From an uncultured Myxococcales bacterium (GTDB lineage Bacteria > Myxococcota_A > UBA9042 > DTJE01), in the NCBI GenBank assembly GCA_903936705.1, contig CAIZWN010000077.1, positions 1-45,509 of the forward strand: 45,509 nt of DNA, written 5' to 3'. Every line of letters starts with the position of its first letter. Position 1 is the stretch's first letter. A program made the position numbers and the translations under genes. Under the pieces are notes generated by a model. It saw only the letters and a program-made list of their open reading frames with translations. It was not told the origin of the DNA and did no database searches. Positions 129-27,371 of the stretch are shown in pieces.

Positions 129-863
129 GTGGGCGTTTACACGTTGATCGGTTGGTGGCGTTTGCTGACCGTCATCCTCCGCGATCTCGCGGCGGATATC
201 GGCGGTTCCGATCCGACAACCCGAGTTCGTTCTCCGGAGTCGGCCGAGGCCGCGCGGCGAGAGTCGCGTGTGCTGACGGAACCCGACCTCCTCCGTTTCC
301 TGGAATCCGTGCGCCTGTGTGCCCCGCATCGGTATGTCGAGTTCCTCACGATGGCGCTGAATGGCGCAAGGGCTGGCGAGGTTTACGCGTTAAAGTGGGA
401 CTCCGTCGACTTCGAGCGGGGCGAGATCATCATCCAGCGCGGGATCTCGGGTGGCATCCTCTCGGACAGCACGTAGACCAGGGCGCCGCGGACGGTCCCG
501 CTTCACGAAGTGCTGGCCGATGCGCTGAAGGAACATAGGGTGGCCATGATGGCTGCCTGCCATCCTGGCATGAAGAACAACTGGGTGTTTCCCACGGAGG
601 CTGGCGGGATGCGTTTGCCGCAGTCTGCTGGCAAGGTGTTCGATCTCGCCAGGGAACATTCGAAGATCGACCAGAGGATCACGCCGCAGGTGCTTCGGCG
701 GACCTTCAACTCCTTGTTGGTGAAGGGCGGTGTCGACAGGATCATCATCAGGTCCATCGTCGGCCACAATGACGACAGGATGACTGCCCTGTATACGGGC
801 GTCGATCTGGCGGACAAGCAGGCCGCGGTGGTGTCCATCTTCAGCGGGAAGAAGGGCGGGTGA
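129..863 (+). pseudogene. Tyrosine recombinase (phage integrase), broken copy 1
   Basis: The reading frame gives the C-terminal half of a tyrosine recombinase. It begins with core-binding-like sequence (GWWRLLTVILRDL), then the catalytic Arg I motif (GARAGEVYALKWD), Arg II in PQVLRRTF, IVGH and the tyrosine motif ALYTG. The usual His of HxLR is Gln here, as it also is in the second copy. A TAG stop at 474-476 interrupts the frame. The second copy reads Lys (AAG) at the same place, so this is a nonsense mutation rather than a sequence gap. The 5' part may begin before the window or in another frame. The GTG at 129 is only the first usable start, so 129 is not a confident gene start. The gene is probably non-functional unless the stop is read through. 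Confidence 0.8.
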
Positions 864-1103: not shown

Positions 1104-2132
1104 ATGAGGATCTCTGCTACGCTGTTCGTTGTGGGCGTCCTGGGCATGGGGTGTGGGGGATCGTCCAGTCCCGGGGTGGACTTTGCGGACCTTGGGGAGG
1201 ACTCGCAGGATGTTGAAGGCATCAAGGACGGCGTTCTCCTTGAGCAGGCTTGCCACGATCGGGCCGCGGCCTATTGCAGGTTGCAGGACGTCTGCTATGG
1301 GACCATTGGCGGCACCAACCGTCACTATGGCGACTTCGCGACCTGCGTGGCCCGTGGTCAGGCGTACTGCCTCACGAGACTGAGCGCCCCGGGTTCGGCC
1401 AGTGACGCCGCGATTGAGTCCGCATGCGCCAAGGCATGCGTCGGTGCGACGTGCGGGGAATACTTCGGAGTAATAGCCGGATGCATGACACCTCGCGGGG
1501 ACCTGACGACCGGGGCAACCTGCACAGTCAGTGCTCAATGCCAATCGACATTCTGCAGGATACCGAAGGGCGCCATGTGCGGCACCTGCCAGCCAACATC
1601 GAAAAAGGGGGACGACTGTTCGACGGCATTTTGCAGCCAAGGTTTTGTTTGCAACGGTGTTACCTTTACCTGCACTCCATCCGTTGATGTCGGTAGCCCG
1701 TGTTCTCCTCTGGGGGGCTCTACCTGCCGAATCGACGCCGTATGCGTGGAAGGCACTTGCCAGCCTGCTGTAACCCGCGCTGGTGATGCTTGTGACTCCG
1801 CCCCGGCGGGTTGTGCCAACAACCTGAACCTCACGTGCGAAGGATCGAAGTGCGTCGAGAATGTGCTCGCGACGACAGGCCTGCCCTGCGGGAAAATTGA
1901 TAATCTCGCACGAACGTACTGCACTGGTGCGGCGGACTGCTTTGAGAAAGAAGGGGCCGGGATCTGTATGGCTAAAGCCACTGACGGCGGGGCATGCTCG
2001 TTTGACGTGGGACCGGCTTGCATGGCGCCTGCGATTTGCGCGCTTCTGGCTGGCGGTGGGACGGTCGGCGTCTGTACCCTTCCAAACCCTTCACTTTGCA
2101 TTAGCGTCGCCGGAGATGACGCCATCCCCTAG
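1104..2132 (+). CDS. Cys-rich lipoprotein, Dickkopf-like repeat type
   Basis: The 342-aa product starts with a lipoprotein signal peptide (MRISATLFVVGVLGMGC). The lipobox LGMGC puts the lipidated cysteine at residue 17, followed by a Gly/Ser linker. The rest is very rich in paired cysteines spaced as in the Dickkopf N-terminal-like repeats that many Myxococcota surface lipoproteins carry (for example GATCTVSAQCQSTFC, GSPCSPL and ADCFEKEGAGIC). It is expected to sit in the outer membrane facing outward; its ligand is unknown. The gene lies between the two integrase fragments and has no operon partners. It is the main clue to the host phylum. The lipoprotein call is strong; the function is unknown. 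Confidence 0.85.
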   Translation: MRISATLFVVGVLGMGCGGSSSPGVDFADLGEDSQDVEGIKDGVLLEQACHDRAAAYCRLQDVCYGTIGGTNRHYGDFATCVARGQAYCLTRLSAPGSASDAAIESACAKACVGATCGEYFGVIAGCMTPRGDLTTGATCTVSAQCQSTFCRIPKGAMCGTCQPTSKKGDDCSTAFCSQGFVCNGVTFTCTPSVDVGSPCSPLGGSTCRIDAVCVEGTCQPAVTRAGDACDSAPAGCANNLNLTCEGSKCVENVLATTGLPCGKIDNLARTYCTGAADCFEKEGAGICMAKATDGGACSFDVGPACMAPAICALLAGGGTVGVCTLPNPSLCISVAGDDAIP

Positions 2133-2347
2133 AAATGGTGCGGTTCCGGCAGACGCCAAGCCCGACTAATGCTGGTACCAAGGCGTCATGAACTCGGCTA
2201 CTGCCATCCTTTGCGACCTGACCTGCGCAAGAACGGCGACGAGACCTGTAGTGCCAAGTCGGCGGACCTTCCCGGTGACGCTGCCTCGATGGGCCTTGTG
2301 TTCCCCACTGCCCAAGCCTCGGTTGGTGGCATGCTGCCCTGACCGGC

Positions 2348-2845
2348 ATGCGGCCCGGCGAGGTCTACGCATTGAAGTGGGACTGCGTTGACCTCGCCGG
2401 GGAGCGGATCATCGTGAAGCGTGGCATCTCGGACGGGGTGCTGACCGAGTCCACCAAGACCAAGTCGCAACGGATCGTCCCGATCCATCCCGACTTGGCC
2501 TACGCCCTCCGGGAACACCGGAAACAGATGATGAAGGAGCAGCGGCCGGGGTTCGACCTGAGCCTCGTGTTCCCGTCGTCCCGTGGGACGGTCCGGTTGC
2601 CGCAGTCCCTGAGCAAGGTCCACACGCTGGCGTGCGAGGCCGCCCACATCGATGTCCGGGTCGGTCCGCAGGTTCTTCGCCGAACGTTCAACACCCTGCT
2701 GGTCCGGGCGGGCGTGGACCGGATCACGCTCCGGTCGATGATGGGGCACTCCAGCGAGCGCATGACCGAACGGTACGCTGGCATCAACCTCGCGGACAAG
2801 CAGGCTGCGGTCATCAGCATCTTCAGCGGGAAGAAGGGCAGTTGA
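2348..2845 (+). pseudogene. Tyrosine recombinase (phage integrase), 5'-truncated copy 2
   Basis: This 165-aa frame matches the catalytic domain of the copy at 129-863: GMRPGEVYALKWD (Arg I), PQVLRRTF (Gln in place of the usual His, then Arg II), MMGHSSERM, and the tyrosine in TERYAG. It is uninterrupted, but the N-terminal core-binding domain is missing. Just upstream, ggttggtggc (about 2321-2330) matches the GWW segment of copy 1, and the frame then jumps directly to LTGMRPGEV. This suggests an internal deletion of roughly 70 codons. With no DNA-binding N-terminal domain it is unlikely to recombine DNA alone. It ends in the same conserved flank as copy 1. Confidence 0.75.
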
Positions 2846-3216: not shown

Positions 3217-3370
3217 GATGTCCCGCGCAATTCCAGGAGCGTGAGGTGTGGTTGCAGTGACTACAGAGGTTCATTGGTGTCGTCAGCGAAGTAGGCGGTT
3301 TCGGACGGCCAGCGTCTGATGCTCATTCTCATCCAGTTCCTTGGCCGGATTCGAACCCATCTAAAACCCC

Positions 3371-3554
3371 ACTGCTGCGACCTACTGCTGCGACCCGGGG
3401 GGGTGCTGCGACCCAGGGGTGGAAAGTGGGGGCGTCCGGATACGATCAACCGCCCGCTCCCGCATCCGATCGTCACTCGGCCTGGACGCGAAGAAGCCCG
3501 TCCCCCGACCCGTTGTTGTGTCCATCTGTTGTGTCCCAGGGTTTTGTTGTGTCC
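3371..3554. repeat. Two triplets of related 11-bp direct repeats beside the tRNA-Gly fragment
   Basis: Three copies of TGCTGCGACC(C) lie at about 3373, 3386 and 3404. Three copies of TGTTGTGTCC lie at 3514, 3527 and 3545. The two motifs agree at 8 of 11 positions (TGYTGYGWCCC) and both triplets use nearly the same spacing (13 then 18-20 bases). They sit within 250 bp of the tRNA-Gly fragment, on the side away from the element body. This arrangement fits arm-type integrase or excisionase binding sites, but they could also be a decayed coding repeat. Confidence 0.5.
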
Positions 3555-3585: not shown

Positions 3586-3612
3586 GAAAGCCCCGGCATT
3601 ACCGGGGCTTTC
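3586..3612 (-). terminator. Rho-independent terminator of the tRNA-Gly remnant
   Basis: A perfect 11-bp stem (gaaagccccgg / ccggggctttc) with a 5-base loop (catta) lies 2-3 bases beyond the tRNA 3' end on the minus strand. The T run after it is weak (ttgtattc). Its position is that of a tRNA terminator, supporting the view that the tRNA 3' end and its downstream chromosome remain intact on this side. Confidence 0.7.
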
Positions 3613-3614
3613 GT

Positions 3615-3659
3615 TGGAGCGGGAGAAGGGATTCGAACCCTCGACGTCGACCTTGGCAA
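3615..3659 (-). other. 3' fragment of tRNA-Gly(GCC): probable attachment site (att)
   Basis: Read on the minus strand, the sequence runs from the anticodon loop TTGCCAA through the 3' anticodon stem (GGTCG), T arm (GAGGG TTCGAAT CCCTT) and 3' acceptor strand (CTCCCGC), ending TCCA. This corresponds to the 3' half of bacterial tRNA-Gly(GCC). Upstream of the loop, the 5' half of the tRNA is absent: no D arm and no matching acceptor strand. A tRNA 3' end that begins exactly at the anticodon loop is the classic product of tyrosine-integrase insertion. From the orientation, the inserted element should extend to higher coordinates, with the complete tRNA-Gly at its far end outside this window. Confidence 0.8.
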
Positions 3660-5201: not shown

Positions 5202-8200
5202 ATGTTCAGAGAAGAGGATCCGGATGTCAAGCGCCAGTCCCTGGCGCCACGTCCCGAAATGGCGCCTGCTGCCGACGGTGCGGCGGGGCGTACCTCGGGT
5301 GATGAGCCCGGCCTGATCGAGAAGGCGTTCCTGACGGTCGGCTTCAAGGAGTGCGCCAAGGAGTACATCGGAGGGATGTTCTGTGGCGCGACCCAGGCCG
5401 GCTTCCGCCCTACGAACAGCTGCAACCTGGAGACGCTGAAGGCCTACGACCCGCAGGTGTTCAAATTCGTGCTGACCGGCGGTTTCCAGTCCCGCAAAGG
5501 CAAGCCCGGCGAGTTCGTGAACGGCCCCATGTACGACATCCCGAAGCTCCTGTTCGACAAGAACGGCCAGCCGCGGGCATTCGACCCGGCGCGATACGGT
5601 ACCGGGGTGACCCAGGACGCGGTGACCCTGGCCACGACCATCGGGTTCGAGGTGGACGACGGACCGGACGGACTCCCGGTTCCGACCCGCGAGCAGGCCC
5701 GGCAGATCGACATCCTCGTTCGCATCTGCGGCTTCCCGGTGCCCAACGCCGTCTGCATGTCGGGCGACGACCGGCCCTGGGTGGTGCGCGAGATCGAGCG
5801 GACGGGGCTCATCTGTCAGCCGGGGAAGTCGATTCACGCCATCCTCTCCCTCCGGCCCACGACGGACCTCGCGGCCCGGGAGGAAGCCGCCCACGCCGTG
5901 GCCGTGGTCACTGGGGGCGACATCGCGGTCTGCGACCTGGGCCATCGGTTCCGCCTCGGAGGGATCATCGCCAGGTTCGACGGCGACGAGGACGTCGGGT
6001 GCTGTCGGGTGCAGACCGCCCTGCACATCCACAACACGCCGACCACGATCGAGCAGGTCATGGGCGCCTGCGAGCGGTGGGCTTCCGACAACGGGATCAA
6101 CCTGGTGGGCGCGTTCGAAGCTCGGAAGGCGGCGAGTGCGTTGATGGGCGGGGTCACGCGCTTCAAGAACATGGCCAAGGAGGCGCGGCTCCGGAATGAC
6201 GAAGCCACGGCCATTCAGGCGCTCACGCTGGCCGAGGAGTGCGAGGCCCTTTCCGAGGCGCTGCGACGGTCCCTGAAGATCAACCCCCGGGTCCGGGAAC
6301 TCCAGGGCATGGCCGCTTCGGGTCTGCTGGCACCGCGGGTTGCAGCGCCTCCGCCGGAGGTCGACGCGGCGTCCGTCACGGTCAATAGCCGGCCGGCGAT
6401 CGCGTCCGACTTCGGTGAGATCTTCTTCGGCGTCAAGGTTTCCGGGTTCACGGCGGTGGCCACGGCGAACGGTGCCAGGACCGCTGGGGCGTGGGCGCTG
6501 GGTTCCCAGGTCTGGCAGGTGAAGAAGCGCGGGAAGGTGTACGAGAACACCTTCTCCAGGTTGTACCAGGAGCTCGCGGACAAGAAGACCGGGCTGTTGA
6601 AGGACGTGGCCTGCCGTTACCACGGCCAGGATCCGAACGTCCCCGGCTCGACGCCCGCCGGGTTCATGGGATTTAACCGGGACAAGACCGCCGCGTTCTT
6701 CCAGTGCCGTCGATGCGGTTGCAAGCACTGGTCGTACGACGACTCCCCGGATTCCGATAACAAGAACAGGACCTTCGAGTCCGGTGACGGCAGCGGCTAT
6801 ATCAACGGTAGGAAGGAACTGGTTTCCCGCTACCTGTACAAGCCGAAGTTGAAGGCCCTGCTGAAGGAACTGAGGGGCAATGCCCTGATCGAGGAGTTCA
6901 ATGGGAAGCGGATGCCCCCGCTGGTCCTCCGGCGAAAACTGGTGCTCGTGAAGGCCCCCTACGGTTCCGGGAAGACGGAGCAGGTAGCCCGCTTCGCGAA
7001 GAAGAACCCGGACGCCCCGATGCTGTTCATCGTCCCCACCCAGAGCCTTGCCCAAACCGCCTTCGGGCGCCTGAAGAAGTTCGGCTTCAAACTGTACATG
7101 GACGAGGATGGCGGCAACCTCGACTGCCCGCGGCTCGTCATCTGCATCGACTCCGTGCCCCGCATCTCGTGGAGCATGAACTACCGGCTGGTAGTGGTCG
7201 ATGAGGGCGAGAAGACGCTGGGCCGCTTCAATGACGCGAAGATGCGTCTCAGGGCCGAGGTATGGGGCCGCCTTGGAGAACTCGTCCAGAGCGCCGACCA
7301 TGCCGTGTTCATGGACGCCGACCTGTCCGTGGCCACGCTCCACATTGGCAGAATGCTGACCGGCAACGCGGACGTTCAGTTCATCTACGGCACGCAGGTG
7401 CGAGGCGGCACCATCTCGCTCTACCGGCGCATCGAGAACCTCGAGGTCGCCCGGCGAGCCACGGATGGACCCACGTTCGTGTATGCGAACACCCTGGCGG
7501 ACGCCGAGACGACCTTCAAGCTCCTGGGCCTGGAGCGCTCGGGCCCTGGGCTCCTCGTCGGCTCCCCCACGACCGGCGAGCAGGCCGTGCGCGACCTGAT
7601 GGCCGACCCGAACCAGCGGGTCCAGGGCTACGAGTTCGTGGTCGCATCGCCCAGCATGAACACCGGCATCTCCATCGACTGCGACCACTTCCTTCACCAG
7701 TTCGCCTTCGCCCGGGCCGGGAACTACACCACTGCGGAGGGCGTCGTGCAGGGCATCTACCGGCTTCGTGACTGCGACGACCGGCACCTGTGGATTGACG
7801 ACCGTGCCGTCGGCACCAGCGAGGACCCGGACTACTACCGGGCCCGGCTCACCCTGCAGGCCGAGAAGGAGATCCGCCGCGCCATCACGGAGGCGGTGTC
7901 CATGGACTTCCAGATGCTCCGGATCTTCGGCCCCCGGGCCATCGATACGAACCTGGTCGAGGCCCGCATCGAGCTCTACGTGGCTCAGGCGAGAAGTCAC
8001 AACCACCTGCTCGCCAACATCCTCGGCATCCTCAAGGAGGAGGGCGTCGTCATCGTGCGGGGCAAGGCCGCCTCTAGATCCACTCGTAGCAAGGCCAAGG
8101 CGTCGTTCAAGAGCACCAAGAAGGCGATGTACGCCGAGGAGTTCCGGGCCATCGCCGACGCCGACATCATCTCGATCGTCGAGGCCAGGCGCCTGGAACG

Positions 8201-8867
8201 GAAGCACAAGGCTACCCGGGTCGAGCGCCGCCAGGTTGCCCGCGCCCGCATCGCGCACGTTGTGGGCAACGACGTGACGATCACGCCTGCGATCGTGGAG
8301 GGGTTCGTGAGGGGGAAGCTCCGCGATCAGGTCTTCCGCTTCACGGGCGTCCAGGCAATCCTGGACGGCCAGGGATCGGCGCTGGCCAGCACGCGGCTCG
8401 ACGCCTACGACACCGACCCGACCCGTGCCGAGGACTCCTACCTGCGGATGTGCAATGCGCTTGCCCGGGTTCTCCGGGAGATCTACGGGGTGACTTCGCT
8501 GCTGGCCCTGAGACTGGTCGAGGCCCCCGACGACCAGGCCATCGAGAACCTTGCCGCGCTGGCCCTCGACCGGGACGTCGGCGGGGTCCTGCGCCTGCGA
8601 AAGGACGCCTGCCGGAGCCCGTTGCGTCTCCTGGGAGATCTCACCCGGCAGTGCGGTCTCCAGGGCAAGGCCATCCGCAAGAAGGTGGACGGCAAGGCGC
8701 GGTACGTGGGGTACGAGTTCGACAGGGGCACGTTCGAGCTCATGACGATGCTCACGGCGCACCAGCGCAAGAAGTTGACGCCGTGGGTGGACATCAACTG
8801 GGGCGACTGGCAAGGACGCACCGAGCCGCTCCCCCAGGAACTCGGCAGGCTCGAACCCGCTGAATGA
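5202..8867 (+). CDS. Replication protein: AEP-like primase fused to SF2-type helicase (CyRepA1 / herpes origin-binding type)
   Basis: This 1221-aa protein is the probable replication initiator of the element. Residues about 145-280 look like an archaeo-eukaryotic primase: an acidic motif (FEVDD, 149-153), a PGKSIHAI motif (207-214) matching the sxH motif, and GGIIARFDG afterwards. A Cys/His cluster at about 470-510 (CRYHG, then CRRCGCKH) should bind zinc. The helicase follows: Walker A APYGSGKT (about 584-592), Walker B VVVDEGEK (about 664-671), MDADLS, and ASPSMNTGISID with a downstream YRLRDCDD arginine-finger-like region. The helicase motifs resemble plasmid CyRepA1 and herpesvirus origin-binding proteins. 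The C-terminal 350 residues are basic and helical and are of unknown role. The ATG at 5202 has a good ribosome-binding site. The family call is moderately firm; primase activity is inferred from motifs. Confidence 0.7.
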   Translation: MFREEDPDVKRQSLAPRPEMAPAADGAAGRTSGDEPGLIEKAFLTVGFKECAKEYIGGMFCGATQAGFRPTNSCNLETLKAYDPQVFKFVLTGGFQSRKGKPGEFVNGPMYDIPKLLFDKNGQPRAFDPARYGTGVTQDAVTLATTIGFEVDDGPDGLPVPTREQARQIDILVRICGFPVPNAVCMSGDDRPWVVREIERTGLICQPGKSIHAILSLRPTTDLAAREEAAHAVAVVTGGDIAVCDLGHRFRLGGIIARFDGDEDVGCCRVQTALHIHNTPTTIEQVMGACERWASDNGINLVGAFEARKAASALMGGVTRFKNMAKEARLRNDEATAIQALTLAEECEALSEALRRSLKINPRVRELQGMAASGLLAPRVAAPPPEVDAASVTVNSRPAIASDFGEIFFGVKVSGFTAVATANGARTAGAWALGSQVWQVKKRGKVYENTFSRLYQELADKKTGLLKDVACRYHGQDPNVPGSTPAGFMGFNRDKTAAFFQCRRCGCKHWSYDDSPDSDNKNRTFESGDGSGYINGRKELVSRYLYKPKLKALLKELRGNALIEEFNGKRMPPLVLRRKLVLVKAPYGSGKTEQVARFAKKNPDAPMLFIVPTQSLAQTAFGRLKKFGFKLYMDEDGGNLDCPRLVICIDSVPRISWSMNYRLVVVDEGEKTLGRFNDAKMRLRAEVWGRLGELVQSADHAVFMDADLSVATLHIGRMLTGNADVQFIYGTQVRGGTISLYRRIENLEVARRATDGPTFVYANTLADAETTFKLLGLERSGPGLLVGSPTTGEQAVRDLMADPNQRVQGYEFVVASPSMNTGISIDCDHFLHQFAFARAGNYTTAEGVVQGIYRLRDCDDRHLWIDDRAVGTSEDPDYYRARLTLQAEKEIRRAITEAVSMDFQMLRIFGPRAIDTNLVEARIELYVAQARSHNHLLANILGILKEEGVVIVRGKAASRSTRSKAKASFKSTKKAMYAEEFRAIADADIISIVEARRLERKHKATRVERRQVARARIAHVVGNDVTITPAIVEGFVRGKLRDQVFRFTGVQAILDGQGSALASTRLDAYDTDPTRAEDSYLRMCNALARVLREIYGVTSLLALRLVEAPDDQAIENLAALALDRDVGGVLRLRKDACRSPLRLLGDLTRQCGLQGKAIRKKVDGKARYVGYEFDRGTFELMTMLTAHQRKKLTPWVDINWGDWQGRTEPLPQELGRLEPAE

Positions 8868-9734: not shown

Positions 9735-10571
9735 ATGGCGGCCAAGCGTCCAGAGGCGTTCGCTGCGAAGGCCTCCACCGCCCTCATGATGCTCCCCGAC
9801 CCCCGGGCGTTGAACCCGGTCCGGCACGGACTGTTCTCGCAGGCCCGGCTGCTGCCCTGGGAGGACGGCGGCGAGCGCCAACGGCATGCGGAAGCCCACA
9901 TTTCATACTTCAAGCCCCGCAACGCCGTCGAGCAGGCCTTGGTCGACGTGATCGACGACGCGAGCTGGAAGGTCAAGCGGTTCGCGTTCGTTGAGACGGT
10001 TCTCGCCAATCTCGAGTCCGGCAGGGCCCGGGTGCAGGCCCTTCCGCCCCAGGTCCAGGCGATGGCCGCGGAGGTGCAGCGCGCGGAGCTCGACGTTCGG
10101 ATCCTGGAGAAGCTGGCTGCGATGCTCGTGCACCGCCGGCGGACGCGCGACATGGCTCCCCTGGCCGGCATCTGGATTCCGCTGGACAGCCTGCTGCCGC
10201 TGAGGACGTCGGTGATCAGCCTCCCGGTCGGGAAGGTCGCCGACGCCATCCGCACCACGATTCGCGATCGCAAGGCGTTCATCGAGGAGCGCCGGCAGGA
10301 ACTGGCGCGCCACGTGGAGGTCGCTCGGCCGGATGCGGAGGCTGCTGCCCTTGAGGCATCGATGTTGCGTCCCGACCAGCACTCCCGGCTGCTCCGCCAC
10401 CTGATCGGGTTGCAGAATCGCCACCGAGCCGCGCTGGCGGATCTGGCGACGATCCGCAACCTGGGCACAGGGGAACCGAGGAATGTCGTCGGCTGCACCG
10501 GCACGGTCGGCCCCTGTGCCTGCCGAAACAAACCGGACGTCGGCGACGGGAAAACCTTGGAGGAACCTTGA
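9735..10571 (+). CDS. Hypothetical protein, 278 aa, mobile-element associated type
   Basis: Mostly helical and charged. The N-terminal motif NPVRHGLFSQARLLPWEDGGE, followed by an EQALVDVIDDASWKVKR helix, recalls uncharacterised proteins often found in phage-like and transposon regions of Myxococcota and Planctomycetes. The phrase pattern (H-G-L-F/Y-S, later E-x-A-L-V) is the only resemblance used here. A long middle segment could form a coiled coil (RKAFIEERRQELARHVEVA). The 3' end, with several Cys, is less conserved in style. It probably belongs to an operon with its neighbours (3-bp gap upstream, downstream gene begins two bases beyond its stop). Function unknown. Confidence 0.6.
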   Translation: MAAKRPEAFAAKASTALMMLPDPRALNPVRHGLFSQARLLPWEDGGERQRHAEAHISYFKPRNAVEQALVDVIDDASWKVKRFAFVETVLANLESGRARVQALPPQVQAMAAEVQRAELDVRILEKLAAMLVHRRRTRDMAPLAGIWIPLDSLLPLRTSVISLPVGKVADAIRTTIRDRKAFIEERRQELARHVEVARPDAEAAALEASMLRPDQHSRLLRHLIGLQNRHRAALADLATIRNLGTGEPRNVVGCTGTVGPCACRNKPDVGDGKTLEEP

Positions 10572-12737: not shown

Positions 12738-14738
12738 CTACCGGCCCTCGTTGCGCACGCCTACTGATTCGGGCAAGTAGCGTCGCCGGAACCGGTCGAG
12801 CCAGTCGCGTTCTTCCCGCGTCGCAACGGCGCCCGCCCAGCGACCCACGAGGTCGTCCAGGGGAACGGTCCGGAAGGTGGTGTCGCCCCCGCGCAGGAGT
12901 TTCTGGTACCCAACTGCGGCACCGGCGCACTCGAGATCCCCGGGGTGATGCACCAGCAGCAGCACCCCCTCGGCGTACCCGCTGCCCCCGCGGTCCCGGA
13001 GGGCAATGGCCAGCAGGTGATCGCGCCAGAGTTGATTGTGGATGACGTCGGCAACGTGTTCCCTGGCATCCGTCCGCCATGGGGCGCGGGACGATTCCAT
13101 CCATCGCCGATACTCGGGCCGGTCATACCGCTTCGCCGAGAACGGCTCTGTCAGCTTGGTCTCGATGCCCACGAACCCGCGGGCACCATCGGGGCGCAGG
13201 TATTCGACGAACGCGTCAAACGAGGTGTTGTCCGCCAGGTATTCCGAGGCGGGCTCTGGAGCCTCCTCGATCTGCACCCGGGTCACGCGCTCGATGCGGT
13301 CGGGCAGAAGCGTCCGGAAGAGCCGCGTGGCGAGATCGGGAGCGTCGATAAGCGGCCCGAACAGGTTGAAGGCCATGGGCTGGCTGGAGAGCAGGTTGTT
13401 GAAGAGGCGGAACGGCTTCACGTTCCTGGGGTTCTCGCGGGCCCTGCGCCGGGCGAGTTCGAAGATCGCCGGCGTCAGGAAGTTGAGGCCGGACGCACCG
13501 TCCTCGGGGCGTAACATGTTCCCGAGAGGGCGTCGGTCGCCCTCGTTCGGTCCGGTACCACAGGGGACGCGCAGCACTTCCGCCCGGTATCGACTCTGGG
13601 CAAGCCGCATTCGCGCGCGGAACGCTGGATCGCCCTGGTACTGCGGACCAATGTCTACCACCGCCGATGCCCGGGCTGCATTGGCAGGCGCCCTCTCCGG
13701 CGAAAGGGCCTCCCCGTCGCCGGGTCGGGGGGCCTCTCCATCCAGAGCCTCGAGCCCGACCACGATCACCCCGTCCCCCGTTCCTTCCGGCCACGCGGCC
13801 ACCCCGGCGACCGGTGTTTCCAGTGCGGCAAGGGAAGCGAGTTCCGGACACGCGTAGAGTCCGCCAACGACCGCGGCGAGCCGGAGGAAGAAGGGGTTCA
13901 GAGCCACTGCGTTCTCGATGAACCACCGAACGTAGGATCTTGCCTGCACGATCGCCGATGCATCCGGGGCAGCCTTCAGTTCGATGACCACCAGGCGACC
14001 GGTCTGAAGGTCCACGGCGAGAAGATCGGTGACGCGGGTATCACCGGACGCAATGGGGTCGATCCGCCACTGGCTGTGGAGGAACCGCAAGCGATCCGGG
14101 AACCCAGGCAGACGCAGTTGGTGGGCCTGGGCGTCGCGGATCAGCCTCGCCTCGAAGCGAACCTCCCGAGACTCGCCCACCTGCCGGGCACGAACCTCCC
14201 GGAGCCAGGCGATCCGGTCCGCCATCGTGTGCTCCAAGGTACTGGCGCGCGTTCCCACGGGGATGAGAGGGTCCCGCCCCACCCCGATCCGGGGCTTCGG
14301 CGACCCGGGATGCAGGTCGACCACCGTTACCCCGCCATAGGTGGGCCGGAAGTACACGCCGCCAATCTCCGGGAACCTCTCGAAGAGCGCCTTCACCTCG
14401 ACAAATCCGGGGGATGCCATGTAGTCCAGCGCCCGGTAGTGCTCGGGTCGCACGACCAGGTTGTCCGGCGTCCTGGCCACTGGCGACGCACCCTTCTGCC
14501 ACTGCGCCGGGCTCTGGCCGGGGTTCGTCTGGTGGATTGAGGCGGCGACCTCCCGGCTGAACCGCCCCAGCCGGGCGCCGCAGGCCCCGCGGCGCTCTCG
14601 GGCCACGACCTCGCAGGACTTCGCGGTGTCAGACCCTCCCGATCGGGGGCAGACCCGAATGAACTCCAGAGTGTCGAAGCGATCGGGAAGGCCCTCAACG
14701 ATCGTGCGGACCTGGGCGTCAGTCAGCTCGCAGGACAT
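12738..14738 (-). CDS. Protein with two PD-(D/E)XK nuclease domains (C-terminal half PGN_0703-like)
   Basis: The 666-aa product carries two nuclease cores. The first is at about 215-275: TDLLAVD (D238), VVIELKA (E253, K255), then a QARSYVRW helix, as in NucS/DUF91-type enzymes. The second is at about 445-535: SSQPMAFNLFGPL, the signature of PGN_0703-type putative restriction endonucleases, then SFDAFVEY (D508) and FVGIETKLTE (E526, K528). An N-terminal helical region contains several Cys. GGAGG precedes the ATG, and the start overlaps the end of the upstream P-loop gene by 16 bases, so the two are co-translated. The likely role is DNA cleavage as the effector of a defence operon; target and trigger are unknown. 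Confidence 0.8.
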   Translation of the reverse strand: MSCELTDAQVRTIVEGLPDRFDTLEFIRVCPRSGGSDTAKSCEVVARERRGACGARLGRFSREVAASIHQTNPGQSPAQWQKGASPVARTPDNLVVRPEHYRALDYMASPGFVEVKALFERFPEIGGVYFRPTYGGVTVVDLHPGSPKPRIGVGRDPLIPVGTRASTLEHTMADRIAWLREVRARQVGESREVRFEARLIRDAQAHQLRLPGFPDRLRFLHSQWRIDPIASGDTRVTDLLAVDLQTGRLVVIELKAAPDASAIVQARSYVRWFIENAVALNPFFLRLAAVVGGLYACPELASLAALETPVAGVAAWPEGTGDGVIVVGLEALDGEAPRPGDGEALSPERAPANAARASAVVDIGPQYQGDPAFRARMRLAQSRYRAEVLRVPCGTGPNEGDRRPLGNMLRPEDGASGLNFLTPAIFELARRRARENPRNVKPFRLFNNLLSSQPMAFNLFGPLIDAPDLATRLFRTLLPDRIERVTRVQIEEAPEPASEYLADNTSFDAFVEYLRPDGARGFVGIETKLTEPFSAKRYDRPEYRRWMESSRAPWRTDAREHVADVIHNQLWRDHLLAIALRDRGGSGYAEGVLLLVHHPGDLECAGAAVGYQKLLRGGDTTFRTVPLDDLVGRWAGAVATREERDWLDRFRRRYLPESVGVRNEGR

Positions 14739-17700
14739 TTCGCACCTCCATCCAGCGGTGCGTACAGAGGGGGCGCCTCGCGCAGGATGCGGCGGAACGC
14801 CTCGTGCCCGCGTGAGCGCCAGTCCGGGTACCAGTTGACCTTGTAGTTCGAGTCGAGCCCCGCCAGGAGTTCGAACCGGCGCTCCGGGAAGCGTCGCAGG
14901 AGCACCTCGAGGACACGGACCAGATCACCCGGGGACCAATCGAGCATCCGGTAAAGGATCATGCGGTCGAAGGCGTCCCACGAGGTGCTCTCGGCCTGCC
15001 GGACGAGGTAGTCGGTCGCTCTCGGGTCGCCGTGCTCCACGAGGATCTCCAGGGCCCGCTTCGTCCGCCCATCCCCGGCGCGCAGGACGCCATCGATTTC
15101 CGCGGCAGACGCCCGGCGCACCCACCACGCGAGGGCCTGTCCGCGGGGGGACAGGTCTTTCCACGAAGTGGAACCACCGGACGTGCTAGCGTCGACGATC
15201 AAGTCGGACAGGCCAAGGCGTTCCAGCCAATAGACCAGCGTCACGTTCACGTCATACTGCGAGAGGGAATCCAGGTGGGCCGGCATGGGAAGAGGCAGCC
15301 CGGCCGGCGCAGACGAGGGTTTCGCGTCCTGGTGCTGGGCGAGGCGGATGCGCCACAGCCGGGCCGCAGCATCGCGGAGCCAGGGCCATTCCTGGGGGTC
15401 CGCGGCGGACAGCAGGGTCAGGAGGGGTCCGTGGCCTCCCGTGGTCTGCCCGGGGTTGGCCGACTCCTCGTCGGAATGCGCGAACCCACAAGGTCCGGTA
15501 AAGGGGTCGGGGTCTTCCAGGGCCCAGGAACGAAGGGTGTCCCGGACCTGCACGCTGGTCGGTCGGTGGGCATGAAGCAAAGCCGCCCAGTAGGCCTGCC
15601 CCCGGGAACCCGATGCGGCCTCTGTCCACAGGTCCCTCAGCAGGTGCACGATTCGTGGATCGGCATGGAACTGTCGAGCTACGTTGTGCCGGAAGCCCGC
15701 TGAGGCCGTTCGGGCTCCGACGAAGACCCAGTCGCAGGGGAAGCCCGGGGCATTTCCGTGGCCCAGTCCAAGTTGCAGGATCTCCTCCCGCCGGGGTCCA
15801 TCAGCGCCGGCTTCCCATGCCGCGTCCAGGATCTCGAACTCCGAGGCCAGGCGGTCCTTCAACCACTTGGGAAGCGTGACACCCGGGTCGGTCGCCCAGT
15901 CGATGATCGGGGCGTAGTCACCCAGCGCCAGCAGAACCATGGCGGCATTTTCCCGGAGTTCCGCGTTCGCCCCTTCGCGCCACAGTCGCCTCAAGGCCTC
16001 GGGGTGCCCCAGGCTGTGGAACACGCTCGCGGCGTCGAGTCGATCGGCCAATTCCTTCCGGAACTCCACGAACCCAAGCCGTTCCGCGGCGAGGAGCGCG
16101 GCGCGGAGGGGAAGCGTCGGAGTATCGCCGAAGGCGGATGCACCGTGTTCGGCTCCGACCGACGCCCGGATCCAGTTCTTGACCGGGGAGCGGTGGCGCT
16201 TCTCCTGGACGCTGGCCTGGTGCAGGCGCACGAGGACCTCGGCAACCGCGTCTGGTTCCGGCCCCTGGTCGGGATGAATTGCTGCGGAGCGCAAGATCTC
16301 GGCAAGCGCGAGCACACCGCTGCCGGCCTTTCCGGCCCGACCGATCCAATCCATCCGGATTCGCATCGGGACTTCCCGCCAGGTCCGGAGCAGGTCCGAA
16401 TCCGGCGTTCGGCCCTTCGAGAAGACACCCTCCCCCGCGACAAAGGCCCGGGCGCCCAGGTGTCCGGCTTCCGCCGCCGCCCCGACGACCTCCGCCTCGT
16501 TCACCTTCTCGTCCCACTGCTCGAACCGTTGAAGGCGAGCGAATCGGGCATCTATGGGGAGGCACTGAGCCGGAGCCAAATGCTGGACCCAGGCCTCCTG
16601 GAATCTCCGCGCCCCAATCGCCCATTCCACGGATTCGCCCATGAACACTGCCGAACTCCAGGGACTGTCGGGCGACATCTCGACATCCTGTGGAAACCCG
16701 GCTTCCGGGATTCGCCAGCGACGGGCCGCCTCTCGGACCTCCACGGGAACGAAGGCTTCGACAGCCGCTACAAGGTCCGGACCGCCCAGTTCCGGCAGGA
16801 TGCCGATGTGGCGGATGGAGAGACGACGGAGCGTCCGGACCAGACCTTCGAAGTGTCCCGACCCCTCGATCCCATAGTACGTGGACGCAACCATGGCCGA
16901 GTAGGTTCCGAAGAGAGTCGTCCAGATCGCGGACGCCCAGGCCGGCAACAGCCATCTGCGGGCGATAGCCGGATCAAGATCTTCTTCGCAAGAGGCCAGG
17001 AACACCGCCAGCCACCGGTCGCGATCGACCCGCAGCCAGTCCGGCGCTTCCGCCAGGGCATCGGTGATCCTCCGAAGATCGTTCCCTGCGATTGCCATCT
17101 CCCGCGCCGAGTGGATCCAGTCGGATTCCAGAAGGCGTTCCCACCGGTCGATGCGGAAGCCGGTCCGCGCCAGCCCCCGGGCCGCCCATAGCAGGGATGT
17201 GGCCTGGTCCGGGGCCTCGACGGCATCCTCGTCCTGTACCAGGAGACCCCCGGCCAGCATCGCGTACAGCAGTGCCTCGCCTGTCGGTCGCTCCAGGTGG
17301 TGCCTCACCTCTTCGACCAACTTCCGGTCGGGCCGTGCCGACTCCTCTAGACGATCGAGGAGACGAACTACGCCTTCCCGCCCGACGTCGGGCCTGGCGA
17401 TGCCGCGCGTCGCCAGTTCCAATCGGGTCGCGGCTTCCGCGGGCGATACCCGGGTCCACGGTGCCATCGGCCCGTCCGCGAACAACCCGGCGAAGAAGTT
17501 CTCGAGCGCCTCCTCTCCCACCTTCTCCAGGCATTCCGAGGCGTCGCGGATTCGACAGGCGCGCGTCCAGGCGGCCCGGGTCTTCCATGCACGAATTTCG
17601 CCGCGCTGCGGGACCTTCCGGAGCCTGGCCGTCTCGGCCACGATCTCGATGACCTGGGTCGGCCAGGCGCTCTCCCCCAGCAGGTCCGGATCTTCGCCAA

Positions 17701-18772
17701 GGCGGTCAGCGAGTTCCCGGCATGCGAGGGCGCCCAAGGCATCGACCATCCCCCGTTCCTGGAGGAGGGCGACAAGGGCTTGAATATGAACGGGTCTCCA
17801 AGGCGTCAGTTCCAGCCCCAGGTCGCTGGTGCGGTCTCCGCGAAGGCGCTCGACCAGCGCGACGACGATCCCGCGATTCAGGGCTCGTGCGCGGGCCCAG
17901 CCTTCCGGCGGTTCCTGGTCCCGGAAGGTCCAACTCGGGACTGCGCCAGTGAAGGCCTCGATTTCCCGGTAGAGACGTTCTACCAAGGTGTGGCGACCCG
18001 AACCCGGGGGCCCCACGATCCATACCCAAGTCGGGGTTCCTTCGCGGAGGGCGTCGGCAATGATTTCGGTATATCGATTCAGGGCGCCCGGAAGGACGCG
18101 CTGGGCTCCGGCCGGCACTTCATCGTTCCGCGTCACCCGCACGATCGCTGGACCGGTTCCCGCCTCCGGGTCATTGAGGACAGGAAACTCTGGGTCATCC
18201 TTCTCCCCAATCCGGGCAAGTTCGCGCTGCAGACGGGAAATCAGAACCCGACTGCCCCCGTCGTACGAGTCGAGCACGAAGAGCCGGGGTGCGTCTCCGG
18301 TTGCTCCGGAGTTCTTCCACTCCCGGGATCGCTGCATGAGGCCTCCCGCCAGTGCGACGACATCGGGTTCGTCACCGTACAGGGCGGGATCCACCTCGAT
18401 CTCACCGCGCTCGATGGTCGGGAACGCGGGGTGCCAGGGGGCCTGTTCCTCTCCGGCCGCAGACCGCTCGTACAGGTCCAGCAGAGCAGTCGGGCTGACC
18501 CGGAGTTCCTGGGCAACCGCTTCCAGCCTTGGGTTAAAGGGAGGCCCGAACCACCTTCGAAGCGTCGGACGGTCCCCGTTCAGGAACCGGCTCAGTTCAG
18601 GCCGGTACAAGGCCTGGGCTCGTTCCAGGTCACGCCCCCTTCCCCGGGCCTGGGCAATGGCATCTGCCAGCGCCTTCTGTTCTTTGCCCTGCTGCCAGAA
18701 AAGCCGCAGAAGAGCCTTCTTCCAGCGTGCACGGCCAACTTCGTCCAGTTCGGGAATGCCAGAATCGGTCAT
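14723..18772 (-). CDS. Large HTH/P-loop (STAND-like) protein, 1349 aa
   Basis: Residues about 28-102 form a helix-turn-helix of XRE type (RPELSRFLNGDRPTLRRW, then LEAVAQELRVSPTALLDLY). A P-loop-like motif VGPPGSGRHT spans 253-262 after TPTWVW. The invariant Walker A lysine is replaced by Arg260. The remaining 1000 residues are helical, rich in Trp and Leu, and resemble the repeat sensor arms of STAND NTPases in general layout, but no named repeat family is certain. It lies between a DUF4258 gene and a double nuclease and overlaps the latter, which suggests a sensor-plus-effector defence system. The changed Walker lysine raises doubt about ATP hydrolysis. It could instead be a DNA-binding scaffold. 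Confidence 0.65.
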   Translation of the reverse strand: MTDSGIPELDEVGRARWKKALLRLFWQQGKEQKALADAIAQARGRGRDLERAQALYRPELSRFLNGDRPTLRRWFGPPFNPRLEAVAQELRVSPTALLDLYERSAAGEEQAPWHPAFPTIERGEIEVDPALYGDEPDVVALAGGLMQRSREWKNSGATGDAPRLFVLDSYDGGSRVLISRLQRELARIGEKDDPEFPVLNDPEAGTGPAIVRVTRNDEVPAGAQRVLPGALNRYTEIIADALREGTPTWVWIVGPPGSGRHTLVERLYREIEAFTGAVPSWTFRDQEPPEGWARARALNRGIVVALVERLRGDRTSDLGLELTPWRPVHIQALVALLQERGMVDALGALACRELADRLGEDPDLLGESAWPTQVIEIVAETARLRKVPQRGEIRAWKTRAAWTRACRIRDASECLEKVGEEALENFFAGLFADGPMAPWTRVSPAEAATRLELATRGIARPDVGREGVVRLLDRLEESARPDRKLVEEVRHHLERPTGEALLYAMLAGGLLVQDEDAVEAPDQATSLLWAARGLARTGFRIDRWERLLESDWIHSAREMAIAGNDLRRITDALAEAPDWLRVDRDRWLAVFLASCEEDLDPAIARRWLLPAWASAIWTTLFGTYSAMVASTYYGIEGSGHFEGLVRTLRRLSIRHIGILPELGGPDLVAAVEAFVPVEVREAARRWRIPEAGFPQDVEMSPDSPWSSAVFMGESVEWAIGARRFQEAWVQHLAPAQCLPIDARFARLQRFEQWDEKVNEAEVVGAAAEAGHLGARAFVAGEGVFSKGRTPDSDLLRTWREVPMRIRMDWIGRAGKAGSGVLALAEILRSAAIHPDQGPEPDAVAEVLVRLHQASVQEKRHRSPVKNWIRASVGAEHGASAFGDTPTLPLRAALLAAERLGFVEFRKELADRLDAASVFHSLGHPEALRRLWREGANAELRENAAMVLLALGDYAPIIDWATDPGVTLPKWLKDRLASEFEILDAAWEAGADGPRREEILQLGLGHGNAPGFPCDWVFVGARTASAGFRHNVARQFHADPRIVHLLRDLWTEAASGSRGQAYWAALLHAHRPTSVQVRDTLRSWALEDPDPFTGPCGFAHSDEESANPGQTTGGHGPLLTLLSAADPQEWPWLRDAAARLWRIRLAQHQDAKPSSAPAGLPLPMPAHLDSLSQYDVNVTLVYWLERLGLSDLIVDASTSGGSTSWKDLSPRGQALAWWVRRASAAEIDGVLRAGDGRTKRALEILVEHGDPRATDYLVRQAESTSWDAFDRMILYRMLDWSPGDLVRVLEVLLRRFPERRFELLAGLDSNYKVNWYPDWRSRGHEAFRRILREAPPLYAPLDGGAKCPAS

Positions 18773-20095: not shown

Positions 20096-21847
20096 CTAAC
20101 CCGCCGACGCGTGAATCTCCCGGATGAGCCGCTGGGTTTCCTCAAGCGCTTCGGACAGCGCGATCTGGAGTTTGGAAGCACGGTCCTCGGTTGCGTTCAA
20201 CTCCGTCACCTGCCGATCCACTTCCTGAATCTCCGGCGCAATCACGTCGCTGACGAACGAATCAGTGGCCTTGTCATAGTGGGTCTCGATCACATCGGCG
20301 GCCTCGCCGAAACTCGACCGAATCGCGTCGCGGGCTTGCGCAAGTTCCTTGCGTTGATTCTCGGCGTCAGAGTCCTCCTTGACCTGAAGCAGAACGCTGA
20401 TGACCGTGCCCGCAACTGAGAGGACGCGTCCGATGTTGGACACGGTCTTCGTCCACTTCACTGCTTGCCATGGCTTGAACGACTTGCCAAAGAGCTTCCC
20501 GGACGACTTGATGAAAGCGTGAACGTTCGTGCCGGAGTACTGCCTCAACCTGAAGATTCCGCCCAGCGTGGACTTTGCCCCGTTGAACGAGTGCGAGACG
20601 AGGAATTCGCCCAGTTTCGACGAAGCCTGGGCAGCTTTTCGGGCTTTGTCCCCGGTGGCAGGATCGATCTTGACCCTGGCTGCCGCAGCGTCAAGAGCGG
20701 CTGCAAGATGCGGTTTCAACAAATGGGCCAATTCGCTGTCGGCAATGTGTTCAAGATCCTTTTCGAGATCCTGGACCACGTCCCCGAAGGCCCGCGTCAA
20801 TCCCTTTTCGAGTTCTTCTGCGTAGTGATCGACCCGCTGTTGTGCGACCGCAATCGCTTGGTTCACTGCGGCCGAGTCGGCACCGCCATGCACGAGATCA
20901 GCGGTCTTGCGACCCTCGTCTCTAACCTTGCCCGTGCTCGACGTGATCTGCGTCCGGCCCGCCTGCCGAACTCGCAATCGGCCTTCATTGAGGGTACGTC
21001 TCTTCTGAATCAAGAGTTCCTTCAAGCCATCCTGTGCCTTGTCACCGGTTGAGGCCTTCGCGAGGGCTTCCTGAAGAACCTGCTCCAGTTCGTAAAGTGC
21101 TGTGGTGAAGCGACCAGCAAGGCCCTTCTCCCGAACGAACGTGTCGCAGGTATTGAGGAACGCACCCATTCCGCTGTCGGCCCAATCTTCTTCAGCTGTT
21201 TGCGGGTCCTGTTCCTTCCTGCTCTCAATAGCCATCTGGGCGTCAGTGAAGCAGAGCCTCATCCCCTCCGGAGTGAACGGCGCAAGCACCTTCCTGAGTG
21301 CCTCAGTGATGACGGCATGAGCAGCAAGGGTGTTGCCCTGCTGGGCACGGCTCATCTTGTTCACCACGAGCATCATCTCGTGGCCCTTGTCCCTTTCGAC
21401 AGCAAGCTTCCGGAAGTTCGCCGCGATGGTTTCGTCCATCAACTCGTTCGAAATGATGAAGACGAGCAGGTCAGCAGCCGCGATCGCCGCGTAGGAAGCC
21501 TCGTCATGGTCGGGCCGGAGACGTGTATGGATGCCGGGTGTGTCGAGGATCTCTACCCCATTCCAGGTATAGGTCTGCACTTCGTTCGTGGTGATGCCAG
21601 CACCGATCTGGATGTCGCTCCTTCCGGTCATCGCGGTGATCAAGCTTGACTTGCCCGCCGAGTACTGCCCGCAGAAGACGACGCGAGGCGTGTCGTTCTC
21701 GGCCAATGCAGAAGGAATCCTGGCGGCAAGTGCCCTGACATCCTCCGGAGTGGCGTCGGCGACAATGGTTCGGCCGCGAGCAAGGAGTTCCTGCCCGCGA
21801 CGACCAAATTCGGCCAACAGAAACGAATGGCTTCCTGTCGCGCTCAT
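20096..21847 (-). CDS. Dynamin-like GTPase B
   Basis: The ATG at 21847 overlaps the stop of the upstream GTPase gene (ATGA) with AGGAGG nearby, giving 583 aa. The GTPase domain shows G1 GQYSAGKSS (60-68), the switch Thr pair ITTNEV (85-90), G3 DTPG (102-105) and G4 NKMS (163-166). Long helices follow, as in the stalk of bacterial dynamin-like proteins, and an apolar stretch (VSNIGRVLSVAGTVISVLLQV) could touch or enter the membrane. Adjacent, coupled dynamin-like genes usually form a heteromeric pair that binds and reshapes membrane (known for Campylobacter DLP1/DLP2 and LeoA-type systems). In bacteria some act in phage tolerance. The family is sure; the role is inferred. Confidence 0.85.
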   Translation of the reverse strand: MSATGSHSFLLAEFGRRGQELLARGRTIVADATPEDVRALAARIPSALAENDTPRVVFCGQYSAGKSSLITAMTGRSDIQIGAGITTNEVQTYTWNGVEILDTPGIHTRLRPDHDEASYAAIAAADLLVFIISNELMDETIAANFRKLAVERDKGHEMMLVVNKMSRAQQGNTLAAHAVITEALRKVLAPFTPEGMRLCFTDAQMAIESRKEQDPQTAEEDWADSGMGAFLNTCDTFVREKGLAGRFTTALYELEQVLQEALAKASTGDKAQDGLKELLIQKRRTLNEGRLRVRQAGRTQITSSTGKVRDEGRKTADLVHGGADSAAVNQAIAVAQQRVDHYAEELEKGLTRAFGDVVQDLEKDLEHIADSELAHLLKPHLAAALDAAAARVKIDPATGDKARKAAQASSKLGEFLVSHSFNGAKSTLGGIFRLRQYSGTNVHAFIKSSGKLFGKSFKPWQAVKWTKTVSNIGRVLSVAGTVISVLLQVKEDSDAENQRKELAQARDAIRSSFGEAADVIETHYDKATDSFVSDVIAPEIQEVDRQVTELNATEDRASKLQIALSEALEETQRLIREIHASAG

Positions 21848-24015
21848 GCTTCTCCAACCTCCTGCCTTGAGTTCGACGTCTGCGACCATGGTTCTACCAA
21901 GACCTGAAGACCCGACAGTTGCTGCGCCATACGAATCCGCTCCGCGTTCAGTTCCTCGGGACGATCGCAACGGACATGAACTTGACCAACCTTGCTCTCG
22001 ATTCGGACGCCTCTGCGGGTGCATCCACGTCCAATCGCTTGCGCGATCATCGACTCTCGATCTCCGTTGTCGATGACAAACCAAACCGGTTCGTCCAACT
22101 GTTGCTCAAGGTCGGCTCTCAAGCCTCCAGGAAACTTCAACTCCGGGGGAATCAGAAGCATTGCTCCCATTCCGGGAACTCGAGCTACATCGCGAATGCC
22201 GGAAACGATCTCCTCCGCTCCAACATGCTTGGCCGCCTCCTCGACTAGTGAGCGACTCAGCTCTTTGGCACGGGAGTTCAGTTCGCCCGCCAGTCCCCTC
22301 TGGGCATCGGCGAGCGAGAACAGGGCATTGGTCACCAACCGGAGATCGGAGCGAACCTTCCGGATGCCGGATAGAAGCCCGGCATGGAACCACTGCTTCA
22401 ACGATCCTCGCAGTTCCTTTTCGATGCCCCACAGATGGTCGTTGAGCTTCCTTTCAAGGCGTGTCCGAGCCCGGCGTTCCTTTGCTTCGCGGTCGTCAAA
22501 GAGCCACGAGAAGAGCGCTCCGACCAAGCCGACTCCAGCGGCAGCCCAGCCCAATGGTCCGGAAGCCAGGATGAGAGCAGCGATGCCCAGACCGCCACTG
22601 ACGATCGTCACGCCCCAGTTCCAGATGCGTTTGGTATCTGTGATGCTTGCAGCCCGGACTCCGGGGACGCCAAGGTCCGCGGCGAGGTCCATTCCAACCT
22701 TGATCTCTCGGACCAGATCTCGTAGACGACCAGTCGCGAGTTCGTGAAGTGATTTCTGAAGGCCCTCGGCCTTTCGGTCGAGGCAAGCGTCACGAATCAC
22801 CTTCTCCCATTTGTCCTTCAACTGGGTGCTCTCAAGGTTGGCCTCGACAAAGCCAGGAACCCTCGCTCGGAGTCCGTCAACCCAGCTATGGACCCCAGTG
22901 TCGATCTGCTCCAAGGATTCCCGCACGAAACGGTCGGTCCATGAGTCGAATTCTCGGCCCTTGCCGATCAGCAACCGACCCGCACTGGAGTTCGCGGCGC
23001 TGAATTCGAACAATCGGTCAGCGAGACGCACTGCGGGCACGGCAGCGCAATCCAAGAACGTGCGGACCCGTAGCATCGCGCCCCTGCCCGCAACTTCCCG
23101 GCAGATTCTCTCTTCTACTTGGTCGAAGCGACTTGATCTTCGCAGGGCATCTCGATGTTCTGAGAATTCTGGGTGGTCGCTCAAGAAGCGGGACCGAAGG
23201 TGAACGGGTTGGAACCGAACCCGAACTTCGGGGGCTTCCGCGTAAATGAAATCCATGAATTGCCTTTCGATATCGCCGAGCCGCCGTGGGTCAAAGTGGC
23301 TTTCCGGGTCACGCAGAAACCTTTTGAGGCTTCGCGGATCGTCGATTCCAACCTTCACGTTGCATACCCCAAGCACCGGCTTACCGAGCCGCCTGACGTT
23401 GACCAGGTGCTCGGCCTCGACAGGTTGTGGGGCATCGTCGGTTATCAAGAAGAGTACCAGGTCCGCTTTCTCCGCCGAGGCGAATGCTACCTGGGCATCT
23501 CCTTGGCCTTCGAAGGCTGCGATTCCTGGGACATCCGTGATGTCCAGCCCTCGCCATCGGTAGGTCCGAACATCACGAGTGGTTCGCTGGGCACCCTTCC
23601 CGATTGACTCGCCATTGCCTCTGGTCAGGATCTCCATGAGCGTGGACTTCCCGGCCATGGTTCGCCCGAACAGCGTGATCGAGAACTGCGCCAAGTGGTT
23701 CGCGTGCTGCTGAAGTCGCTGCTCGGTCTCGCTTTGAACCCCACGAAGTCCACTCATGACTTCGGCAAGTTGTTCCCTGAGCCGAACGGTCGTTTCCTGC
23801 GACTCGAGGTCGGCTTGGTCGAAACTGTCGAGGCTCTCGCGCAGCGAACGTTCTGCGTCCTTGAGCGCACCAGATGACTTCTCCAGGCTCTTGAAAGCCA
23901 GTTGGTGCCCCTTCTTGGCCGCTCTATGGCACTGTTCCAGCGCTCCTTCGAGGTCCTTGGTCGCCTGCTGATCGGGTCGCATCCGCAAGTCCTCCAGCAG
24001 CGGGTCGAGATACAC
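21844..24015 (-). CDS. Dynamin-like GTPase A with membrane hairpin
   Basis: This 723-aa product starts with a 110-residue coiled-coil-like region, then the GTPase domain: G1 GRTMAGKST (117-125), RTTRDV with the switch Thr (144-149) and G3 DVPG (161-164). The N-V-K-V at 219-222 stands where G4 (N/TKxD) is expected and is degenerate. A hydrophobic stretch at about 465-506 (GLGIAALILASGPLGW, then VGLVGALFSWLF) looks like a paddle or two-pass membrane insert, followed by a basic region. The only reasonable start is the GTG at 24015. A stop precedes it by about 17 codons and its ribosome-binding site is weak. It is coupled to the second GTPase, so the two probably form a hetero-oligomer at the inner membrane. 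Confidence 0.85.
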   Translation of the reverse strand: MYLDPLLEDLRMRPDQQATKDLEGALEQCHRAAKKGHQLAFKSLEKSSGALKDAERSLRESLDSFDQADLESQETTVRLREQLAEVMSGLRGVQSETEQRLQQHANHLAQFSITLFGRTMAGKSTLMEILTRGNGESIGKGAQRTTRDVRTYRWRGLDITDVPGIAAFEGQGDAQVAFASAEKADLVLFLITDDAPQPVEAEHLVNVRRLGKPVLGVCNVKVGIDDPRSLKRFLRDPESHFDPRRLGDIERQFMDFIYAEAPEVRVRFQPVHLRSRFLSDHPEFSEHRDALRRSSRFDQVEERICREVAGRGAMLRVRTFLDCAAVPAVRLADRLFEFSAANSSAGRLLIGKGREFDSWTDRFVRESLEQIDTGVHSWVDGLRARVPGFVEANLESTQLKDKWEKVIRDACLDRKAEGLQKSLHELATGRLRDLVREIKVGMDLAADLGVPGVRAASITDTKRIWNWGVTIVSGGLGIAALILASGPLGWAAAGVGLVGALFSWLFDDREAKERRARTRLERKLNDHLWGIEKELRGSLKQWFHAGLLSGIRKVRSDLRLVTNALFSLADAQRGLAGELNSRAKELSRSLVEEAAKHVGAEEIVSGIRDVARVPGMGAMLLIPPELKFPGGLRADLEQQLDEPVWFVIDNGDRESMIAQAIGRGCTRRGVRIESKVGQVHVRCDRPEELNAERIRMAQQLSGLQVLVEPWSQTSNSRQEVGEA

Positions 24016-25748: not shown

Positions 25749-25766
25749 CGTGTCCCCCCTGACTGT

Positions 25767-26072
25767 TCAACGAGTGGTGACTGCCGCGCGCACCCCTTGC
25801 GCCCTCAAGCTCTCGGAGATTTCCCTGACGACGCGGCCCTCGAAGAACACGCCCTTGAACCCACCCACGTCGATTTCGATGCGGCCCGGGCCCGCGACAC
25901 GAACGGTCGCGCTCACGCTCTTGGCGGCCAGGCCATCCCGCAACCTGGAAGCGATGTCAGAATCAACTCTCCCTGCGACGTCCATTCCGAATTGCTCAGC
26001 CAGCCACGTCATGACACCGCCTTCGTGCCTGGATGCCAGGTCGTGCTGGTTGAGGATCATGACGACAATCAT
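25767..26072 (-). CDS. Small protein (101 aa), PHA-granule-like fold suspected
   Basis: AGGAGG five bases before the ATG at 26072 decides this start (MIVVMILNQHDLASRHEGG). The ATG at 26012 (MTWLAEQFGMD), also with a GGCGG nearby, would give 81 aa and better matches its homologues in length. The product has a helix (VDSDIASRLRDGL), strands (SVSATVRVAG, RIEIDVGGFKGVF) and an end helix (GRVVREISESLRAQG). This order resembles the small proteins at 19606-19923 and 26132-26425, but the sequence similarity is weak. It belongs to the same minus-strand operon. Confidence 0.5.
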   Translation of the reverse strand: MIVVMILNQHDLASRHEGGVMTWLAEQFGMDVAGRVDSDIASRLRDGLAAKSVSATVRVAGPGRIEIDVGGFKGVFFEGRVVREISESLRAQGVRAAVTTR

Positions 26073-26131
26073 CTGCCCTCCTGGCAGTTCATCTGGCGCC
26101 GCAGCCCCACGCACGGAAACGCCGGATCGAC

Positions 26132-27021: not shown

Positions 27022-27026
27022 AGGGC

Positions 27027-27350: not shown

Positions 27351-27371
27351 CCGGTCACGTTCTCACTGCCG

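Follow-up and report, generated by a model that had tools for sequence, protein, structure and literature searches.

Genomic islands seated in tRNA genes are known as the Islander class, in which a tyrosine integrase leaves a 3′ tDNA fragment that begins at the anticodon loop, the known “A” crossover subsite in tDNA, and for which tandem arrays are also described (PMC4383910). The locus considered here, on contig C77 of an uncultured member of the Myxococcota, is a further example of tRNA seating with subsite A crossover, and most likely of a tandem array, sharing with the class both the anticodon-loop fragment and the tyrosine integrase; at C77, however, the assembly contains just a single end of the younger island and lacks its integrase, and the integrases on the left are broken. 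Islands at tRNA-Arg, -Val, -Met, -Asp and -Gly(CCC) genes in uncultured Myxococcales MAGs (for example CAIMLR01, CAIYBN01 and CAIYWC01) resemble it in the integrase subfamily, the convergent layout, the two to three direct repeats between integrase and tRNA, and the anticodon-loop fragments, whereas the target at C77 is tRNA-Gly(GCC) and the repeat sequence varies from element to element. Another point of comparison is given by plasmids of the CyRepA1 type, exemplified by pSYSA of Synechocystis, a carrier of defence genes which integrated into the chromosome or into pSYSX upon deletion of its Rep gene (PMC9978351). The large primase-helicase-like Rep and the defence cargo are common to both, but the C77 protein is 20–28% identical to its plasmid counterparts over 30–47% of its length (20 best matches) and sits in a tRNA-integrated myxobacterial element. 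The window analysed is the entire contig C77 (45,509 b) from a genome of 4.85 Mb in 84 contigs. With a probability of roughly 0.78, the tRNA piece at 3615–3659 is the displaced 3′ half of tRNA-Gly(GCC) at the junction of two inserted elements, the younger one (B) on the right and older remains on the left. Thus it is most likely the scar of a large mobile element carrying defence genes and inserted into a tRNA-Gly gene, beside decayed older elements of the same site. C77 would then represent a tRNA site reused by successive elements. Their scars can still be read as pieces of tRNA, stubs of integrase genes and arm-like repeats, and the site would now hold a large defence-gene cargo together with a plasmid-type replication gene.

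On the minus strand, positions 3659..3615 read TTGCCAAGGTCGACGTCGAGGGTTCGAATCCCTTCTCCCGCTCCA, 45 bases that run from the anticodon loop (TTGCCAA, 7 nt, with GCC as anticodon) to a terminal CCA. Identity to positions 31–75 of the intact tRNA-Gly(GCC) of the same genus amounts to 41/45 (91%; E 1e-11 against the window), the homology ends at the anticodon loop with none upstream of it, and according to ARAGORN the window contains no complete tRNA. The fragment is followed by a strong terminator hairpin at about 3586–3613 (minus strand; fold −23.3 kcal/mol, z −6.1), and relatives G001, G002 and G009 possess an intact tRNA-Gly(GCC) with a similar hairpin terminator behind it. The first-pass annotation had described 3615–3659 as the 3′ part of tRNA-Gly cut exactly at the anticodon loop with its terminator kept, and the sequence, the match and the hairpin bear this out. 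As in tDNA islands, the piece is the 3′ terminal one, it is correctly oriented, and the crossover falls at a known subsite; it represents a displaced copy of the attachment site. Debris of a pseudogene, left by duplication or deletion in the course of which no site-specific recombination took place, might be suspected from the decayed sequences nearby; since the break lies exactly at the anticodon loop, the known subsite “A” (PMC4383910), and recurs at this point in contig C31 of the same genome and in the arrays of relatives, this origin is rejected as extremely improbable. In the mechanism that we propose, a tyrosine integrase would act on two sites, the anticodon loop of the tRNA and the attP of the element, in which the 3′ part of that tRNA is present as a copy, and recombine them; the attP junction of element B would be formed by its right end joined to TTGCCAAGGTCGACG... 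The integrase-distal end of B would start from 3660, with its integrase and the rebuilt tRNA beyond the contig end; on the left, at least one and probably two older elements of the same tRNA would have left their integrase-proximal remains, namely the arm-type repeats and the two broken integrases, and native chromosome would begin only beyond them. The order of insertion, with B as the later arrival, and the continuity of B as a single element to 45.5 kb and further are what we infer from this arrangement.

The comparison covered 34 loci of related integrases from uncultured Myxococcales MAGs. Wherever a tRNA, whole or in part, was detected just past the integrase, the two were convergent, with 85–690 bp from the integrase stop to the T-arm; among the targets are Met, Arg(TCT), Arg(CCG), Asp, Gly(CCC), Val and Thr. 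At L163, L167, L171, L177 and L181 the neighbour is a tRNA fragment which diverges just upstream of the anticodon loop, and the same break recurs in tRNA-Arg and tRNA-Val fragments of other Myxococcota. The stacked-array layout—intact tRNA, integrase, element, fragment, integrase—is complete in two contigs: in G017:C15, 36 kb separate an intact tRNA-Arg(TCT) and its integrase from a fragment having the next integrase behind it, and in G025:C128 a tRNA-Val array extends over 31 kb, each member with its own fragment and integrase. In the latter array a terminator follows the fragment and the integrase of the next element comes right behind; therefore a retained terminator is no proof of chromosome, and its presence at C77 lends no support to a chromosome on the left of the fragment. 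Contig C31 carries both an intact tRNA-Gly(CCC) (18,480–18,554), followed by two copies of GGGGACGGT, and 8.4 kb apart a distal fragment (10,072–10,120) which starts at the anticodon loop, has a terminator and, as read here, is directly followed by dnaJ/hflK-type genes. In this simpler case the rule of chromosome beyond the fragment holds, whereas at C77 it probably does not. In G002, a tRNA-Gly(CCC) 3′ fragment (L078:17906-18010) bears a T-loop insertion consisting of two copies of the hairpin GACGCTGCGGGCTTCGCCCTACGCG, and a second fragment (L080:6820-6860) starts from this point too, behind an almost identical hairpin.

The left flank of C77 comprises two tyrosine integrase remnants beside the single tRNA fragment. 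Remnant 1 (141–863, plus strand), near the contig start, is interrupted by an in-frame TAG at 474–476 and is 60% identical to remnant 2 (2336–2845, plus strand; PF00589, E 9.9e-19; 55% to the integrase of L154), which retains residues 254–415 of 420 while the N-terminal ~250 residues are gone. Both are broken and both converge on the fragment, the nearest one being 770 bp away, slightly above the 85–690 bp of relatives. Their best relatives are intact integrases from uncultured Myxococcales MAGs (47–56% identical); phage and plasmid integrases are distant (31–35% among the matches listed). Between the remnants lie a cysteine-rich lipoprotein-like ORF (1104–2132, plus strand; 342 aa, no Pfam match) and no second tRNA fragment. 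An Rfam scan gave a single sub-threshold match at chance level.

Just left of the fragment, two groups of 10-bp direct repeats in perfect copies were detected on the minus strand, GGACACAACA ×3 at 3514–3554 (triplet 1) and GGTCGCAGCA ×3 at 3373–3413 (triplet 2), both with spacing of 18 + 13 bp. The scan of the 45.5-kb window for triplets with spacings of 15–21 and then 12–14 bp returned exactly these two, against ~0.1 expected at a looser threshold and none in ten shuffles at a stricter one. Loci of relatives likewise have two to three direct repeats of ~8–14 bp between the tRNA end and the integrase, conserved in spacing and element-specific in sequence; in 24 of the 25 loci measured, the longest repeat immediately behind the tRNA was longer than the mean obtained by shuffling (p < 0.05 in 23), and the period was usually 12–14 bp. 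The triplets may therefore be regarded as candidate integrase arm sites, and repeat similarity correlates more closely with the N-terminal and middle parts of the integrase (Spearman 0.50 and 0.60) than with its catalytic part (0.37) or with the targeted tRNA (0.27), which fits arm binding in a merely correlative way. A tentative and rather doubtful reading is that stacked elements of this integrase subfamily, having the tRNA core site in common, would be distinguished by element-specific arm repeats of fixed geometry (about 15–21 + 12–13 bp), which could serve as address tags allowing several elements to stack at one tRNA without mutual excision. Repeat geometry may also be used as a marker of an element end where the integrase or the tRNA piece is lost or off the contig. 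Triplet 2 has homologues in G001, both just downstream of the intact tRNA-Gly and again 1.5 kb further along, as well as on contig C45 of the own genome. Contig C45, which shares the triplet, was tried as continuation of the left flank and rejected, its matches being short and dispersed. A T-arm-like sequence, GGGTTCGAATCCGG, is located after triplet 2 at 3339–3361 and around 6523 on C45 (L117), and matches no tRNA of the own genome.

The first-pass annotation assumed chromosome directly to the left of the fragment, which would leave a single element on the right and make the integrase pieces unrelated chromosomal debris. The terminator and the GGTCGCAGCA triplet follow the intact G001 tRNA-Gly too, so that some of the DNA on the left could have been chromosomal for a long time, and the C31 fragment is followed by chromosomal genes without any interval. 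Yet stacked arrays also keep the terminator, the DUF4833 gene present in G001 and G002 is missing here, and the two arm-like triplets with two integrase remnants are ordered and oriented as on the integrase side of an element. We consider native chromosome at this position improbable: the flank is built like the integrase-proximal end of an element, and it is probably wrong to place the chromosome immediately beside the fragment. The other option raised earlier, that the recombinase pieces belong to an older decayed element of the same site, is better supported; probably, the flank represents the collapsed integrase-side ends of two older insertions.

In tDNA islands, a 3′ tRNA fragment devoid of the 5′ half always has the inserted DNA on its 5′ side. 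As the 3′ fragment at C77 is displaced and its 5′ half replaced, the inserted DNA lies on the 5′ side, that is, to the right. The segment 3660–45509 contains no second boundary mark in the form of a tRNA piece, an integrase of the remnants' family or an arm-repeat triplet, and the proposal that the insertion extends rightward from the fragment stands. The inserted part is thus at least 41.8 kb and, by the fragment geometry, corresponds to the integrase-distal portion of B with the right end beyond the contig. No integrase gene was found in 3660–45509 and none of the scanned ORFs gave a Pfam match to relaxase or conjugation genes, the element being incomplete on the contig. Alternatively, the fragment may be a true old insertion end with a patchwork of several elements, deletions or rearranged chromosome on its right side, which is compatible with the preferred explanation of the left flank. 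Close relatives of the CBASS block, of a WYL gene and of a DHH-like gene are spread over different G000 and G002 contigs, so that these parts move or recombine separately, and the G+C content of the right part ranges between 0.61 and 0.68, though it is a poor discriminator here. The lack of internal boundary marks speaks against such a composition, as does the absence from the window of the flank that G001, G002 and G009 conserve upstream of the tRNA; we regard a patchwork as possible but unlikely. Some cargo blocks (CBASS and WYL) recur elsewhere in the genus, so that the right side may be a mosaic; over 25510–45509, relatives have counterparts only of the CBASS block, the WYL block, the DnaE paralogues and some short stretches, all on other contigs.

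The other end of B is unseen because neither an intact tRNA-Gly(GCC) nor a full-length close integrase relative is assembled. ARAGORN assigned 44 tRNAs genome-wide, with expected isoacceptors present and no intact tRNA-Gly(GCC) among them. An AFOR gene and a 342-aa gene are conserved upstream of tRNA-Gly in G001, G002 and G009, and this neighbourhood has no DNA-level counterpart in the assembly; comparison of 40 kb of G001 with the own genome gave, upstream of the tRNA, no more than weak scattered matches and no syntenic flank. Neither AFOR (upstream) nor DUF4833 (downstream), both conserved beside tRNA-Gly in relatives, is present in the window. The missing tRNA and upstream flank fit, and do not prove, an unassembled stretch holding the intact tRNA and the integrase end of the element. 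The contig terminates in a repeat (45182–45509, plus strand) which shares 92% identity with the 328 b at the end of contig C81 and is nearly identical in its terminal part. This repeat is the start of an ORF, DHH-like by eye and without Pfam match, common to both contig ends, and the near-identity of this ORF start accounts for the break of C77. In G002 C76, the DHH-like ORF comes directly after a WYL gene.

The cargo begins with a CyRepA1-like plasmid replication protein of the primase-helicase type (5202–8867, plus strand; 1221 aa; NF042913, E 2.9e-53), related to CyRepA1 plasmids by tblastn. Its score of 181.7 bits is below the NCBIfam cut-off of 200, so it is homologous and not a formal member of CyRepA1; no relatives were found in the 51 other genomes searched or in the genome-contig scan. 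A PDDEXK_13 nuclease (12738–14738, minus strand; 666 aa; PF20796, E 1.1e-79) is followed by two dynamin-like GTPases, LeoA-like and LeoBC-like (20096–24015, minus strand; PADLOC E 6.7e-109 and 3.1e-87), and by a CBASS pair (30042–33014, minus strand; PADLOC) of CD-NTase with AGS-C and SAVED-HNH-type effector, in which the CD-NTase adjoins the SAVED effector as in CBASS of this kind and which recurs on G002 contig C210 as a block of 78% DNA identity. The start of the nuclease gene is overlapped by the gene of a 1349-aa protein (14723–18772) with weak AAA_16 and other Pfam matches; the two may possibly constitute a two-gene defence system, for which PADLOC gave no match. A short DnaE-like polymerase with subsequent SbcD-like and SbcC-like genes (35177–42901, plus strand; ORF domain matches) is possibly a repair or defence module. 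The polymerase (35177–37792, 871 aa) contains PHP, polymerase and finger domains. Two WYL-type regulator genes (33519–34655 and 42915–43982), ~50% identical, bracket the DnaE-SbcCD stretch, and the second has 86–90% identical copies on C31 and at G002 contig ends. Contig C20 of the own genome encodes a second short DnaE of 811 aa, 75% identical, near a metallo-beta-lactamase-fold gene.
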